Translations under genes and position numbers: made by a program
Shown here: piece after piece, positions 6,817 through 29,762 of the stretch
Layout: the number at the start of each line of letters is the position of its first letter
Numbering within the stretch: the first letter of the stretch is position 1
Notes under the pieces: generated by a model
What the model was told of the DNA's origin: nothing
The model's input: only the letters and a program-made list of their open reading frames with translations
Database searches by the model: none
Assembly: GCA_001443495.1 (NCBI GenBank)
Contig: LDXR01000025.1
Span: 1 to 33,403 of the forward strand
Direction of reading: 5' to 3'
Length of the DNA stretch: 33,403 nucleotides
Source: a candidate division NC10 bacterium CSP1-5
GTDB taxonomy: Bacteria; Methylomirabilota; Methylomirabilia; Methylomirabilales; CSP1-5

Positions 6817-7320
6817 ATGAGCGGGCTCTCTCCGCCGGAGGTCCATCCAGTGGCCTCTCGCTTGCAAGAGGCCTTTCCAGGAGCGGTGCTGGAGGTGACG
6901 ACCTTCCGGGACGAGGTGACGATTACTGTCGAGCGGGAGGCGATCGTTGGCATCTGCCGCTTCCTCAAAGAGCACCCGGATCTCCGGTATGACTTCCTGG
7001 CCGATCTCTGTGGTGTGGATTGGCTGGAAAGGCGGGAGCCGAGATTCGAGGTGGTCTATAACCTGTACTCGATCTCCCGCGCGGACCGCATCCGGGTAAA
7101 GGTTCGGGTGCTGGACGGAACGGAGGTGCCCTCGGTGACCGGCGTGTGGCCCACCGCCAATTGGCATGAGCGCGAGGTCTTCGACATGTTCGGCATCCGA
7201 TTCGCGGGACATCCCGATCTCCGTCGGATCCTGATGCCCGAAGACTGGGAAGGACATCCCCTCCGAAAGGATTACCCGGTGGCGGAGATGCCGCGTTGGT
7301 GGGAAGTGAACAAACCATGA
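6817..7320 (+). CDS. nuoC: NADH-quinone oxidoreductase subunit C (30 kDa)
   Basis: A 167-residue protein matching the Complex I 30-kDa subunit, part of the peripheral arm beside the quinone site. The signature WHEREVFDMFGIRFAGHPD and the following RRILMPEDWEGHPLRKDYP are nearly canonical. The N-terminal part (YDFLADLCGVDW) is also typical. The gene begins three bases after lipA, so the two are translationally close. Normally nuoC sits between nuoB and nuoD; here neither is present, and the next gene is nuoI. The last codons (NKP, stop) run into a heptamer repeat tract (7316-7336). Confidence 0.95.
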   Translation: MSGLSPPEVHPVASRLQEAFPGAVLEVTTFRDEVTITVEREAIVGICRFLKEHPDLRYDFLADLCGVDWLERREPRFEVVYNLYSISRADRIRVKVRVLDGTEVPSVTGVWPTANWHEREVFDMFGIRFAGHPDLRRILMPEDWEGHPLRKDYPVAEMPRWWEVNKP

Positions 7321-7336
7321 ACCCTGAACCATGAAC
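7316..7336. repeat. Tandem heptamer repeat at the nuoC/nuoI junction
   Basis: Three 7-base units on the minus strand of the type GTTCANN (plus-strand CATGAAC, CCTGAAC, CATGAAC). The first overlaps the nuoC stop codon. Same unit family as at 9145-9243 and 20274-20301. Confidence 0.7.
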
Positions 7337-7353: not shown

Positions 7354-7848
7354 GTGAACATGCTCTCAGCCATTGCCAAAGGGATGTTCACCACCTTCAA
7401 GCACATCTTCCGCAAGGAGGTCACCGTCCCCTATCCCGAAGAGCGTCTTCCTGTCTCCCCCCGCTTCCGGGGACGCCACTTTCTGGTGGTCGATGACGAC
7501 GGCCTGGAGCGTTGCGTGGGGTGCGAGCTGTGCGCCGTCGCGTGCCCGGCGGACGCCATCTACATCGAGGCGGCCGAGAATACGGAGCAGGTACGCGTCT
7601 CGCCCGGGGAGCGATACGCCAAGGTGTACATGATCCACATGTTTCGGTGCATCTTCTGTGGCTATTGCGAAGAGGCCTGTCCCGAGGATGCGATCTTTCT
7701 CGGGAAGGAATACGAGATGGAATGCTACACGCGGGACGGCTTCATCTACGATAAAACCAAGCTCAACCTCAATGTTCGGGGGGCGGCCAAGCAGCGTCCC
7801 GAGGTGCTTCACCGGCTGCAGGAGGATCTGTCGACGTACCATAAGTAG
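7354..7848 (+). CDS. nuoI: NADH-quinone oxidoreductase subunit I (2x[4Fe-4S])
   Basis: A 164-residue ferredoxin-like Complex I subunit (TYKY/NuoI) that carries clusters N6a and N6b and passes electrons toward NuoB. Two complete sets of cysteines are visible: Cys54, 57, 60, 64 (CVGCELCAVACP) and Cys99, 102, 105, 109 (CIFCGYCEEACP). An N-terminal amphipathic segment (AIAKGMFTTFKHIFRK) resembles the membrane-association helix of NuoI. The start is the GTG at 7354 with GGAG seven bases upstream. It lies next to nuoC and without nuoA, B, D, E, F, G, H or J-N nearby. A stand-alone polyferredoxin role is an alternative, but length and motifs match NuoI closely. Confidence 0.93.
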   Translation: MNMLSAIAKGMFTTFKHIFRKEVTVPYPEERLPVSPRFRGRHFLVVDDDGLERCVGCELCAVACPADAIYIEAAENTEQVRVSPGERYAKVYMIHMFRCIFCGYCEEACPEDAIFLGKEYEMECYTRDGFIYDKTKLNLNVRGAAKQRPEVLHRLQEDLSTYHK

Positions 7849-7929
7849 GACCCGATGTTCGGTGTCCAGAGTCGGGGGGTAGAGAAGGAACTGAGAGACG
7901 TCGGACCTCGGACGCCTGAAGGACAGGAC

Positions 7930-9132
7930 ATGGATCTCGACACTCTGAAAAGTCTTGCGGTGAAGGCGGACACAAAGATCATTCTCCTGGTCCTGGATGG
8001 CCTGGGAGACCTGCCTCGCGAGCCGGGGGGGCCGACCCCGTTGGAGGCGGCGCGGACGCCCAACATGGATGCCCTGGCGGTCCGGGGTGCGTCGGGGTTG
8101 GTGGATCCGGTGGGACCCGGGATCACCCCTGGGAGCGGCCCAGGACACCTGGGTCTTTTCGGCTACGATCCGTTGAAGTACCGGATTGGCCGGGGGGTGC
8201 TCGAGGCCTTGGGGATTGACCTCGAACTCACTCCCAGGGATGTGGCCGCCCGTGGCAACTTCTGCACCATGGATGAGGCGGGCAGGGTGACCGATCGTCG
8301 CGCCGGGCGGCTCTCGACCGAGCGTTGCATCGAGCTTTCACGGCTGTTGGATGCCATCCGGCTCGAGGGGAGCGAGGTGATCGTCCGCCCGGTCAAGGAA
8401 CATCGATTCGTCGTCCTCTGGCGGGGCGACACGCTTTCCGATCAGTTGACCGAATCGGATCCGCAGCGGCTCCACGAGGCGCCGCTCAAGGTGGAGGCCA
8501 AGATCCCTGAGGCCGAGAGGACGGCGAGGCTCGTCAACGTCTTTATCGAGAAGGCACGGTCGCTGCTGAGGGAGAAGCACCCGGCAAACATGATTCTCCT
8601 GCGGGGCTTCGCCACGCATCCCAATCTGCCCACCTTTCGAGAGCTCTATCAGCTCCAGGCGGCGGCCGTTGCTGTGTATCCGATGTATCGGGGACTCGGA
8701 AAGCTGGCGGGGATGCAGGCGCTCCTGGCCGGTCCGAGCGTGCGGGAAGAGTTCGAAGTCGTGCGCCAGCACTGGCAGAAGTACCATTTCTTCTACGTAC
8801 ACGTGAAGGGGACCGACACGGCCGGCGAAGACGGGAACTTCGACGCCAAGGTCGCAGTGATCGAAGAGGTGGACCGCGAGCTCCCGACGTTGCTGGCGCT
8901 CCAGCCGGACGTCCTCGTGGTCACCGGGGATCACTCCACCCCGGCCAGCCTCAAGGCCCACAGTTGGCATCCTGTTCCGGTGTTGCTGTCGAGCCGCTGG
9001 TGCCGACCAGATGACGTCCAGGAGTTTTCGGAGCGGGAGTGTCTCCGGGGCGGCCTGGGGCGGCTGCGGGGGAAAGAGATCTTACCCCTCGCGCTGGCCC
9101 ATGCCGAGCGCCTCGCGAAGTTCGGGGCGTGA
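7930..9132 (+). CDS. apgM: 2,3-bisphosphoglycerate-independent phosphoglycerate mutase, archaeal type
   Basis: A 400-residue member of the alkaline-phosphatase superfamily that interconverts 3- and 2-phosphoglycerate in glycolysis and gluconeogenesis. Visible are the metal-binding VLDGLGD (Asp23, Asp27), the nucleophile segment PGSGPGHLGLFGYDP (Ser69), HVKGTDTAGEDG from His291, and TGDHSTP with Asp334 and His335. The length and GSGPGHLGLFGYDP fit the ApgM subfamily rather than the roughly 510-residue GpmI. The ATG at 7930 has AAGGA upstream; an ATG at 7855 would add 25 residues encoded by a degenerate repeat-like stretch. It sits between nuoI and pdhA, linking the last glycolytic steps to acetyl-CoA formation. 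Confidence 0.92.
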   Translation: MDLDTLKSLAVKADTKIILLVLDGLGDLPREPGGPTPLEAARTPNMDALAVRGASGLVDPVGPGITPGSGPGHLGLFGYDPLKYRIGRGVLEALGIDLELTPRDVAARGNFCTMDEAGRVTDRRAGRLSTERCIELSRLLDAIRLEGSEVIVRPVKEHRFVVLWRGDTLSDQLTESDPQRLHEAPLKVEAKIPEAERTARLVNVFIEKARSLLREKHPANMILLRGFATHPNLPTFRELYQLQAAAVAVYPMYRGLGKLAGMQALLAGPSVREEFEVVRQHWQKYHFFYVHVKGTDTAGEDGNFDAKVAVIEEVDRELPTLLALQPDVLVVTGDHSTPASLKAHSWHPVPVLLSSRWCRPDDVQEFSERECLRGGLGRLRGKEILPLALAHAERLAKFGA

Positions 9133-9144
9133 CAGGAACAGGCA

Positions 9145-9243
9145 GTTCATGGTTCAGGGTTCACAGTTCAGGGTCGGAGATTACAGAGCGCTCCCCGCGT
9201 TCCGGCCGTGGACTATAATCCCTGAACCATGAACGATGAACGA
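9145..9243. repeat. Inverted heptamer repeat element upstream of pdhA
   Basis: Four tandem heptamers (GTTCATG, GTTCAGG, GTTCACA, GTTCAGG; 9145-9172) face three reversed ones on the other strand (plus-strand CCTGAAC, CATGAAC, GATGAAC, from 9221). About 50 bases lie between them, including a perfect TATAAT (9214-9219) that has no good -35 box. Transcribed, the arms could fold into a long imperfect hairpin between apgM and pdhA. Confidence 0.7.
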
Positions 9244-9296
9244 CTCGACTGAGCTCGTCGAAGTCCGTGAACTCTGATCCAGAAGGGGCGAGAAGG

Positions 9297-12551: not shown

Positions 12552-12712
12552 ATCTGTGGTCGAGTCACCTCGTCGGTGTTTCAACGCGTTCGGATGTTCG
12601 CGACACCGTGGTCATCCGCGCCTGAGGACGAGAGGACCCACTCTGAAGCGGCCCAGCAGCGGCTGGCTGCCAGGACTGCTGTATTCGTCGGTTGTTTGTG
12701 AAGGGGCAAGCG

Positions 12713-14107
12713 ATGGCAGAGAAGTATGACCTCGTGGTGATCGGCAGTGGCCCCGGGGGCTATGTGGGCGCCATCCGGGCGGCCCAGCTTGGGATGAAGG
12801 TCGCCATCGTGGAGCGAGACCGCCTGGGAGGGGTCTGTCTCAACTGGGGTTGTATCCCGACCAAGGCCCTTCTGCGAAACGCCGAGATCATCGCGCTCCT
12901 GCGTCGGGGCGAGGAGTTTGGATTCAGCTTTGACAACCTGCGGCTGGACTTCTCGGTGGCGGTGAAACGCAGCGAGCAGGCGGCTCGAAAGCTGTCCAAG
13001 GGTGTCGAGTATCTCATGAAAAAGAACAAGGTGACGGTGGTGCCCGGGGAGGGAAGGCTCGCTGGCAGTGGCCAGGTCCGGGTGGCCAAAGATGGCAAGG
13101 TGACGGAGCTGGAAGCGGCACGGATCCTTCTGGCGACCGGTTCGCGTCCGCGGGAGATCCCCGGGGTTCCGATTGATGGCAAGCGGGTCATCACCAGCAC
13201 CGAGGCTCTGAGCCTCCCTCAGGTCCCTCGGTCGCTGCTGATTATTGGTGCCGGAGCGGTCGGCGTGGAGTTTGCCGATGTCTATCACGCCTATGGCGCT
13301 GAGGTGATCCTCATCGAAATGCTTCCTCGGCTCTTGTCGGTCGAGGATGCCGAGATCTCGAACTTCTTGGAAAAGATCTTCGCCAAGCGGGGCATCAAGA
13401 TTCGGACTGGCACCAAGGTCGAGGGGGTGACGGTGAAGGGGGAGCAGGTCTTCCTTCGGCTCTCCAACGAAGGCAAGACAGAGGAGATCAATGGGGATGT
13501 CGCGCTGGTCGCCATCGGTCGCATTCCCAACATCGAGGCGTTGGGGATCGAAGGGTTGGGAGTCAGGGTGGGCCGCGGCAGCTTCATCGAGGTGGGCGAG
13601 CGGTTCGAGACGTCGGTTCCGGGCATCTACGCCATCGGCGATGTGATCGGCGGTCCTCTCCTTGCCCATAAGGCGATGGCGGAGGCAGTCGTGGCGGTTG
13701 AGGCAATGGCTGGACAGAGCGGGAGACGGATCGATCCCTCAAAAATCCCGAACTGCACCTACTGCTCCCCCCAGGTGGCCAGCGTCGGGCTCACCGAGGA
13801 GCAGGCAAAGGAAAAGGGACGCCAGATCAAGGTGGGCCGCTTCTCCTTTCAGGCCAGCGGCAAGGCGGTGGCGCTGGGCGATACCGAAGGGTTTGTCAAG
13901 GTGGTAGCGGATGCAGAGTACGGCGAGATCCTGGGCCTCCACATCATCGGACCCGAGGCGACCGAGATGATCGCCGAGGCCACGATGGCCCGGACCCTCG
14001 AGGCGGGGCTCGACGAAGTGCACCACTCGATCCACGCCCACCCGACCCTTTCCGAGACCGTGGCCGAAGCCTGCCTGGCCGCCCTGGGCCGCCCCATCCA
14101 TATGTAA
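12713..14107 (+). CDS. lpdA: Dihydrolipoyl dehydrogenase (E3)
   Basis: A 464-residue flavoprotein disulfide reductase that reoxidises the dihydrolipoyl arm and reduces NAD+. The FAD-binding GSGPGGYVGAIRAAQLG, the redox disulfide Cys42/Cys47 in CLNWGCIPTK, the NAD-binding GAGAVGVEFADVYHAYG, and the C-terminal dimer motif HPTLSE (His443, Glu448) are all present. The ATG at 12713 follows AAGGGG by six bases. A 161-base gap separates it from pdhC; I see no terminator there, so read-through from the pdh genes is likely. lipB begins ten bases after its stop. Confidence 0.96.
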   Translation: MAEKYDLVVIGSGPGGYVGAIRAAQLGMKVAIVERDRLGGVCLNWGCIPTKALLRNAEIIALLRRGEEFGFSFDNLRLDFSVAVKRSEQAARKLSKGVEYLMKKNKVTVVPGEGRLAGSGQVRVAKDGKVTELEAARILLATGSRPREIPGVPIDGKRVITSTEALSLPQVPRSLLIIGAGAVGVEFADVYHAYGAEVILIEMLPRLLSVEDAEISNFLEKIFAKRGIKIRTGTKVEGVTVKGEQVFLRLSNEGKTEEINGDVALVAIGRIPNIEALGIEGLGVRVGRGSFIEVGERFETSVPGIYAIGDVIGGPLLAHKAMAEAVVAVEAMAGQSGRRIDPSKIPNCTYCSPQVASVGLTEEQAKEKGRQIKVGRFSFQASGKAVALGDTEGFVKVVADAEYGEILGLHIIGPEATEMIAEATMARTLEAGLDEVHHSIHAHPTLSETVAEACLAALGRPIHM

Positions 14108-14112
14108 CGGAG

Positions 14113-14147
14113 GTCCGATGTCCGACGTCCGAAGTCCGAGGTCCCAG
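14113..14147. repeat. Five tandem heptamers GTCCGAN overlapping the lipB start
   Basis: GTCCGAT, GTCCGAC, GTCCGAA, GTCCGAG and GTCCCAG stand in perfect 7-base register. The lipB ATG (14118-14120) is formed across the first two units and the remaining units encode the first residues of LipB. Confidence 0.8.
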
Positions 14148-14825
14148 AGCGAATGCATCGTAGAGTGGCTCGGGCGCGTAGAGTACGGCGAGGTCCTCGC
14201 GTTGCAGCGGCAGTGGGCGTCCGCGCGGACACAGGGGCTGGCGGAGGATTGCCTTCTCCTCCTCGAGCATCCGCCGGTGATCACCCTGGGGCGGGGAGCG
14301 AAGCGGAGGCATCTCCTCGCGGGCGAGGATCTCCTGCGAGCTCAGGGCATCGAGGTGTGGGAGATCGAGCGGGGGGGCGATGTCACCTTCCACGGACCAG
14401 GGCAGCTCGTCGGGTACCCTATTCTTGATCTCACGCGCCACGGGAAGGACCTCCACCACTACATGCGAAGACTTGAAGAAGTGCTGATTCGGACCCTGCA
14501 TCGGTACGGTATTCAAGGAGAGCGGAGTGCCGGCCAGACAGGGGTCTGGGTTCATGGGGCCAAGATCGCCTCCATCGGGGTGCACGTCAGTCGCTGGGTG
14601 AGCCGGCACGGTTTCGCCTTGAACGTGAGCCCCGATCTCAGCGCATTCGATCTCATCATGCCCTGTGGCCTCAGCGGGATTCGAATGACCTCTATGGCGG
14701 CCCTCCTCAAGCGACAGGTGCCGGTCCAGACAGTGGCCGAGGCGGTCGCCGTGCAGTTCGCGCTCGTCTTCGACTGCGCTGTGCGATGGCGGAGCAGTCC
14801 GGAGGCGGTCCTGTCTTTGCCATGA
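14118..14825 (+). CDS. lipB: Octanoyl-[acyl-carrier-protein]:protein N-octanoyltransferase
   Basis: A 235-residue LipB, which moves octanoate from ACP to the lipoyl-domain lysine so that LipA can add sulfur. Family motifs are LEHPPVITLGRG, RGGDVTFHGPGQLVGYP, GQTGVWV, and the catalytic Lys149 (GAKIASIGVHVSRW) and Cys183 (PCGLSG). GGAGG stands five bases before the ATG at 14118. The first dozen residues (MSDVRSPRSQSE) are encoded by a heptamer repeat tract and do not belong to the family core, which begins near CIVEWLGRVEYGEV. With lipA at the other end of the operon, it makes this region self-sufficient for de novo lipoylation of PdhC. Confidence 0.95.
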   Translation: MSDVRSPRSQSECIVEWLGRVEYGEVLALQRQWASARTQGLAEDCLLLLEHPPVITLGRGAKRRHLLAGEDLLRAQGIEVWEIERGGDVTFHGPGQLVGYPILDLTRHGKDLHHYMRRLEEVLIRTLHRYGIQGERSAGQTGVWVHGAKIASIGVHVSRWVSRHGFALNVSPDLSAFDLIMPCGLSGIRMTSMAALLKRQVPVQTVAEAVAVQFALVFDCAVRWRSSPEAVLSLP

Positions 14826-20273: not shown

Positions 20274-20301
20274 GTTCACAGTTCACCGTTCACGGTTCAC
20301 C
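20274..20301. repeat. Four tandem heptamers GTTCACN
   Basis: GTTCACA, GTTCACC, GTTCACG and GTTCACC in exact 7-base register between yjbQ and mqnE. Only the seventh base varies. Confidence 0.85.
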
Positions 20302-29632: not shown

Positions 29633-29649
29633 AGACCTACAATTGAAAG

Positions 29650-29740
29650 CACTACGGGAGCTCGCGGAGGCGAGCTGAGAGGTCCCGGTAATCGCGGGAC
29701 GACCGTCGAACCTGATCTGGATAATACCAGCGAAGGGAGA
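29650..29740 (+). promoter_or_regulatory. TPP riboswitch (THI element)
   Basis: Conserved thi-box elements appear in order: a stem AGCTCGC / GCGAGCT leading into CTGAGAGG, a GC-rich variable stem (TCCCGG / CGGGA), GAACCTGATCTGG, ATAATACCAGC and GAAGGGA. This is the aptamer that binds thiamin diphosphate and lowers expression when it is abundant. It lies directly after a promoter and before an intrinsic terminator, ahead of the Rieske gene and thiC. Confidence 0.93.
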
Positions 29741-29762
29741 ACCCGGGAAATGCGTAGAGTTG

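Follow-up and report, generated by a model that had tools for sequence, protein, structure and literature searches.

A dispersed heptamer repeat probably captured as the translation start of lipB in an NC10 bacterium

Degenerate heptamer arrays of the GGGAATC/GGGANTN type are known from Xanthomonas, where 186 and 183 of them were counted in two genomes, four units being the commonest length (Rehm et al. 2015, PMC4692102). The passages of that paper on the arrays place them mostly between genes and nearer the upstream one, count 70 and 75 convergent cases and judge phase variation unlikely. Geobacter metallireducens carries tandem hepta- and octanucleotides (GTTGCTYN, TCTCCGTS, MTYCTGA and GGACCGG). 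According to the sections of PMC2700814 on these elements, three classes are proposed as IHF/HU sites and GGACCGG, which also occurs inside genes, as a regulatory RNA element. In marine Beggiatoaceae, TAACTGA direct repeats of 2-6 copies stand at gene boundaries and some overlap gene ends (MacGregor 2015, PMC4679880, passages on the repeats).

We analysed a stretch of 33,403 nucleotides from candidate division NC10 bacterium CSP1-5 (the window; its genome is called G000 below), in which a heptamer array stands between the genes for dihydrolipoyl dehydrogenase and LipB. The features at this junction are as follows.

12692..14107, + strand: lpdA, dihydrolipoyl dehydrogenase (TIGR01350, 1.9e-174), stop codon at 14105-14107; this is the longest frame and the true start is probably inside it
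14109..14113, + strand: putative Shine-Dalgarno sequence GGAGG, read from the letters; GGAGG-TCCG-ATG is also present in loci L014 and L015
14113..14147, + strand: heptamer array, GTCCGAN x4 followed by GTCCCAG; one of a dispersed family of arms, solo and in sense, 5 nt past the lpdA stop
14118..14825, + strand: lipB (TIGR00214, 1.7e-56); ATG from units 1 and 2, residues 1-10 repeat-coded

The gene order is E2 subunit, lpdA, then lipB. The array reads GTCCGAT GTCCGAC GTCCGAA GTCCGAG GTCCCAG and was called with period 7 by Tandem Repeats Finder. The pattern GTCCGANGTCCGA was matched at four places in the window, three of which belong to this array, and nowhere in 100 dinucleotide shuffles. A preliminary description had counted five GTCCGAN units: four are exact, and the fifth carries one mismatch. 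It had also placed the beginning of the repeat within the ribosome binding region and the ATG at a unit joint. Both placements hold: the last G of GGAGG is base 1 of the array, and in the ATG (14118-14120) the A and T close unit 1 while the G opens unit 2. The sequence supports the view that the array supplies the start codon and first residues of lipB. The spacing between GGAGG and the ATG is 4 nt, which is short by the usual rule and counts against use of this ATG. Because the match to the LipB catalytic domain (PF21948) begins at residue 23, the repeat-coded residues 1-10 lie outside that domain.

We compared the array and its family with the described systems, as far as the passages on those systems go. 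The likeness to the Xanthomonas GGGANTN arrays is close: both are degenerate heptamers, dispersed and present as facing pairs, and for both phase variation is judged unlikely. Period-7 dispersal and column-limited degeneracy were found here as in Xanthomonas, and so were convergent pairs, in the GTCC[GA]A family; the lipB arm itself is solo. The unit sequence is different, however, and the Xanthomonas arrays form G-quadruplexes, while GTCCGAN, by reading, holds no run of three G. GTCCGAN arrays are thus an architectural relative of the Xanthomonas arrays and not a member of the G-quadruplex family. In the passages on the Xanthomonas arrays, start-codon donation is not met with. The Geobacter elements share short, partly degenerate, dispersed tandem units, and their classes 1 and 2 are opposite-strand pairs (PMC2700814). 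The TAACTGA repeats, as described, have one main unit, are mostly forward, stand just before starts and mostly go without a Shine-Dalgarno sequence; unlike them, the arrays here are degenerate, often behind stops and often facing, and GGAGG is present at lipB. The heptamer contingency locus HMW1A of Haemophilus influenzae likewise has a 7-bp tandem unit (PMC8262952, in the part that treats this locus). Among the matches listed in our searches of the freely readable literature, nothing concerned heptamers in Methylomirabilota, and no paper combined lipB, a tandem repeat and a start codon.

We examined the lpdA-lipB junction in relatives. Each of the seven genomes of the genus (G000 to G006) contains a single LipB match, and a match is present in 30 of the 35 genomes of the order. 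In a LipB tree, G000, G004 and G005 form a clade (support 96/99). The junction of G004 and G005 reads GGGAGGTCCGATGTCCGAGGT(C/T)CGATGC, that is, GGGAGGTCCGATGTCCGAGGT(C/T)CGATGCATC, and encodes MSEVRCIV; the lipB DNA of G005 is identical to the public record L014, a Candidatus Methylomirabilota MAG. The lipB start of the window and its Shine-Dalgarno sequence are common to two sister species. These two have three units and are exactly 21 nt, or three heptamers, shorter than the window, so that the lipB frame is kept. The claim that the array encodes a non-conserved N-terminal extension also stands: the Cys that comes after M-R-E in LipB of G001 and G003 is preceded by 12 residues in the window and by 5 in G004 and G005.

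G001 is arranged differently. Its lpdA ends in TGA, followed by GGAGG and seven GTCC/GTC-type heptamers (GTCCGAA GTCCAAC GTCCGAG GTCCGAT GTCCAAC GTCAATA GTCAAAC). After the array come a spacer, AAGGAG and a TTG start with RECEAYW, so that lipB has a ribosome site of its own. The arms at the lipB junction of the window, G004, G005 and G001 all begin 5 nt past the lpdA stop. In G003 (L012/L017), an unrelated 9-mer array, AGTACAGAR, stands directly before lipB (MRECETYW). The upstream region is longer in G002 and G006, and the stretch compared there contains no such repeats.

We propose that the lipB array is a solo arm of a dispersed heptamer family that was captured as a translation start and kept in frame, and we give this reading a probability of roughly 0.7. 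Ancestrally, the arm would have stood behind lpdA, as it does in G001, whose lipB starts separately from a ribosome site of its own. The common ancestor of G004, G005 and the window species may then have lost the spacer, and with it the ribosome site and start that lipB had used before. A new initiation site would then have arisen from GGAGG beside the lpdA stop and an ATG provided by a T-ending unit (GTCCGAT|GTCC). Translation from the repeat would add a short leader, probably dispensable, of about 2 residues in G004 and G005 and about 9 in the window species. Units would be gained and lost by slow slippage, and selection on the LipB frame would retain only three-unit changes. The window lipB retains more of the apparent old codons (SEC) than its counterparts in G004 and G005. 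We infer the order from a G001-like to the fused state, and regard it as unproven since the tree leaves G001, G003 and G002 with G006 unresolved around the trio; insertion or growth of a repeat at the start would look similar.

It is conceivable, though on balance unlikely, that no spacer was deleted and that the array instead arose right where lipB starts, by insertion or by local duplication of, for example, a pre-existing GGAGGTCCGATGTCCGA. GGAGGTCCGATG is common to all three close species, and the 9-mer array that G003 has directly before lipB indicates that repeats can grow locally at this junction. G001, however, has the same heptamer family 5 nt past lpdA and well before an intact lipB start, which favours an older arm.

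The preliminary description had further proposed that gain or loss of one unit shifts the frame and could switch lipB on or off or move its start. Its arithmetic is right: when a script gave the array 1-8 of the window's own units and accepted ATG, GTG, TTG or CTG from 32 nt upstream or behind the array, only 2, 5 or 8 units yielded a start in frame with the LipB core. The comparison of unit number across relatives that it had suggested shows that the number is not constant (five units in the window, three in G004 and G005). The on/off switch found no support: the sole difference seen between species is exactly three heptamers, in frame. This difference is one event and no proof of selection. 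Heptamer contingency loci such as HMW1A are long arrays that vary in number. Unlike them, the lipB array is short, imperfect and in frame.

Two orthologous arrays elsewhere hold their visible unit number across the same species: the array between rpsJ and rplC shows the same visible units in G000 and G004, and one that encodes the tail of a PAP2 protein keeps its unit number in G000, G004 and G005. Several arrays, moreover, adjoin housekeeping genes: the neighbours include rpsJ-rplC, rpmJ, coaBC, apgM, a malate dehydrogenase gene and a candidate lpxB, which, in this unsystematic sample, are not surface genes in particular. A similar argument against phase variation was made for Xanthomonas in the passages on its arrays (PMC4692102). 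On the other side, the period of seven leaves a working frame with few unit numbers, and loss of LipB might be survivable: the same genome encodes a second protein of the lipoyl-ligase type, LplA-like (PF21948, 5.1e-32; L095 on contig C1, 15149-16015, minus strand), which weakens the argument that lipB, being essential, would not be switched. Judged from these sequences, phase variation at lipB is unsupported; we consider a switch quite improbable and rejected it as the main reading on the in-frame difference, the short imperfect array and the two stable orthologous arrays. The data look like a captured arm kept in frame, an accident of evolution and not a contingency switch.

Still less probable is a conserved regulatory element for translation of lipB, acting as a protein- or RNA-binding site or as the code for a leader peptide. 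A translational role for TAACTGA heptamers before start codons is proposed by MacGregor (PMC4679880, passages on the repeats). At lipB, however, unit number and context vary, and the array is absent there in G002, G003 and G006.

The lipB repeat is one arm of a dispersed set of degenerate heptamer arrays (GTCCGAN, GTCCAAN, GTTCANN) found in all seven genomes of the genus. Matches to GTCCGANGTCCGA number 16, 30, 12, 8, 44, 34 and 10 in G000-G006 (reversed-pattern control, 0-1), 11 in G007, which belongs to another family, and 0-5 in 33 other genomes, where the control is also 0-1. Matches to GTCCAANGTCCAA number 13, 9, 49, 13, 6, 8 and 22 in G000-G006 and 35 in G007, with a control of 0-1 in these eight genomes and of up to 14 in other genomes of the order. 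For GTTCANNGTTCANNGTTCA, each genome of the genus has 60-124 matches (control, 0). From the counts of GTCCGANGTCCGA and GTCCAANGTCCAA, the preferred hexamer varies by species: GTCCGA is favoured in G004, G005 and G001 and GTCCAA in G002, G006 and G007, with a mixture in G000 and G003. This shift may stem from general base composition.

In the window itself, several further arms are present.

7313..7336, - strand: GTTCANN-type array within which the upstream gene has its TGA stop (7318-7320)
7899..7913, - strand: GTCCGAN arm between nuoI (ends at 7848) and a gene for an apgM-type phosphoglycerate mutase, whose ATG is at 7930
9145..9170, + strand: GTTCANN array, first arm of a facing pair
9223..9243, - strand: TGAACNN array, second arm of the facing pair with 9145..9170
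20274..20300, + strand: GTTCACN array directly past a stop codon

Facing pairs stand at what seems to be the same nuoI-apgM junction in G004 (L147) and G001 (L125). Other neighbours of arms, identified by family, are L36 (G001), CoaBC (G003), NuoI and ApgM (window) and malate dehydrogenase (G005); LpxB, beside an arm in G003, is a 39-residue piece with a weak match.

We scored self-matches at fixed lags in 403,404 bases of the same genome, comprising the window and 19 further stretches (10.5% non-coding). Lag 7 gave 34 tracts (versus 5 in a second-order Markov control), 23 of them mostly non-coding. The mostly non-coding tracts at other lags numbered 0-1 each for lags 4-6 and 9-13, 12 for lag 8 and 14 for lag 14, a harmonic. 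The window and three of the stretches had been picked for known hits. When these were set aside, 16 stretches remained (310,001 bases, 11% non-coding). In this subset, the mostly non-coding tracts numbered 9 at lag 7 and 9 at lag 8, beside 6 and 2 coding ones, and 0-1 at lags 4-6 and 9-13. Period 7 is thus enriched between genes, and in the subset chosen without regard to hits period 8 is equally so; we therefore dropped the idea that period 7 stands alone. Units among the lag-7 tracts include GTTCANN, GTCCGAN, GTCAGCN, GTCATCG, GTCAATG and GTGATTG. The unbiased test of column degeneracy is a permutation of mismatch columns in these tracts: of 81 mismatches between units, 70 sit in the two most affected columns of their tract. 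These 70 come from the 23 tracts with at least two mismatches, and 0 of 2000 permutations were as clustered. In other phyla, 76 loci (448,699 bases) held 31 lag-7 tracts and also 31 lag-9 tracts, coding and non-coding being pooled. Loci L045, L068 and L072, from Acidobacteria and Gemmatimonadetes, contain heptamer arrays with complementary units nearby.

Are the arrays mobile? Of 41 genomes, 26 have a match to the Y1 transposase domain (Y1_Tnp, PF01797). No match was found in G001 (68% complete) or G003, both of which carry arrays, and G009 and G025, with 10 and 13 matches, hold 0 to 2 arrays. Transposase presence does not track array abundance in these genomes, and mobility of the REP/RAYT kind, which may nonetheless operate, was set aside as the explanation. 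An Rfam scan at the gathering score of L101, L106, L111 and the window found no family for the arrays. The sole Rfam match in these four sources was a TPP riboswitch (RF00059, 56.4 bits) at 29644-29755 of the window.

To place the arms relative to genes, we drew them from the genome sample and from 60 stretches chosen among the GTCCGANGTCCGA sites listed, a set that is not random. In this set, 34 of 104 GTCC[GA]A arms start 0-18 nt past a same-sense stop that closes at least 100 open codons. For the opposite strand the number is 4 of 104, and for random positions it is 922 of 20,800. The other 70 arms are not within 20 nt behind the stop of a long frame. Neighbouring arms at most 120 nt apart are facing in 29 cases, point the same way in 3 and 1 and diverge in none; four of the 29 facing pairs are re-fetched copies, leaving 25. 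As neighbouring arms mostly face each other, they could form intercistronic hairpins. Within 120 nt, 54 of 112 arms have no facing partner. The lipB arm is among these, so that the hairpin part is inapplicable to it. At least one single facing unit lies on the proper side of 6 of the 54 solo arms, versus 1 on the wrong side.

One facing pair could be followed across species. It lies between the stop of rpsJ and the ATG of rplC (S10 and L3 were confirmed as neighbours in G000) in all six genomes of the genus in which the junction was found; for G005, the search for the junction gave no match. The two arms remain complementary across the species' shift of hexamer, and 93.8% of cells pair, versus 21-51% when the partner is slid. 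The helix is kept; covariation is weak, as 113 of 500 shuffles scored as high, and RNA covariation at this junction was discarded as not above shuffles. Fold z-scores average -4.5 over 25 elements and mostly restate the complementarity of the arms. Seventh bases are complementary in 34 of 201 cases (51 +/- 6.5 expected) and, with orthologous copies removed, in 20 of 118 (29.6 +/- 4.5 expected; 2% of shuffles as low). This signal is weak, and since the units of this set were located by their hexamer, freedom at column 7 is in part built in; avoided pairing at the seventh base was set aside. A broader reading would make the facing arms genus-wide intercistronic hairpins with 6-bp steps, a deliberately unpaired seventh base and a common factor, from whose stray arms genes like lipB borrow starts and stops. 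The shift of hexamer between species, the complementarity kept through it at rpsJ-rplC and the low count at the seventh base point that way, yet we find this reading doubtful.

Arms also enter genes elsewhere. In G000, four GTCCGAN units and GTCTAG encode the C-terminal tail and stop of the PAP2 protein (L106, 4201-4231); the corresponding DNA appears alike in G004 and G005 (L146, about 664-690; L165, about 739-765). A histidine kinase of G000 has a facing pair in frame within its HATPase domain (L107, 7879-7972), and, by reading, a kinase-like frame of G002 (L133) contains another, in frame and ahead of its DTGIGI motif. lipB is therefore not alone in having repeat-written coding sequence.

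Behind some solo GTCCGAN arms (L111 from 14992 onward; L135, L141, L167) stands a longer multicopy repeat, GAGCGAGGAGG... GGCGACATCTGGCTTGCGTC..., which seems to be a dispersed element in its own right. The dispersed near-palindromic sequence CTCGACTGAGCTCG(C/T)CGAAGTC adjoins heptamer arrays at 9244-9265 of the window, in L106 (about 2642) and in L111 (about 13992). Contigs of G004 and G005 (L155, L161, L166) end within or about 120 nt past GTCCGAN arrays, which suggests that such repeats may break assemblies.

Taken together, the family described here is a new lineage, in Methylomirabilota and with several unit families, of the known paired heptamer arrays, and the specific new detail is the proposed start-codon capture at lipB. 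A dispersed repeat has apparently been turned into the translation start of a core metabolic gene, one relative (G001) still displays the array together with the old start, and six species keep a facing pair at one and the same junction of a ribosomal operon. The function of such arrays is thereby open to comparative and experimental tests.
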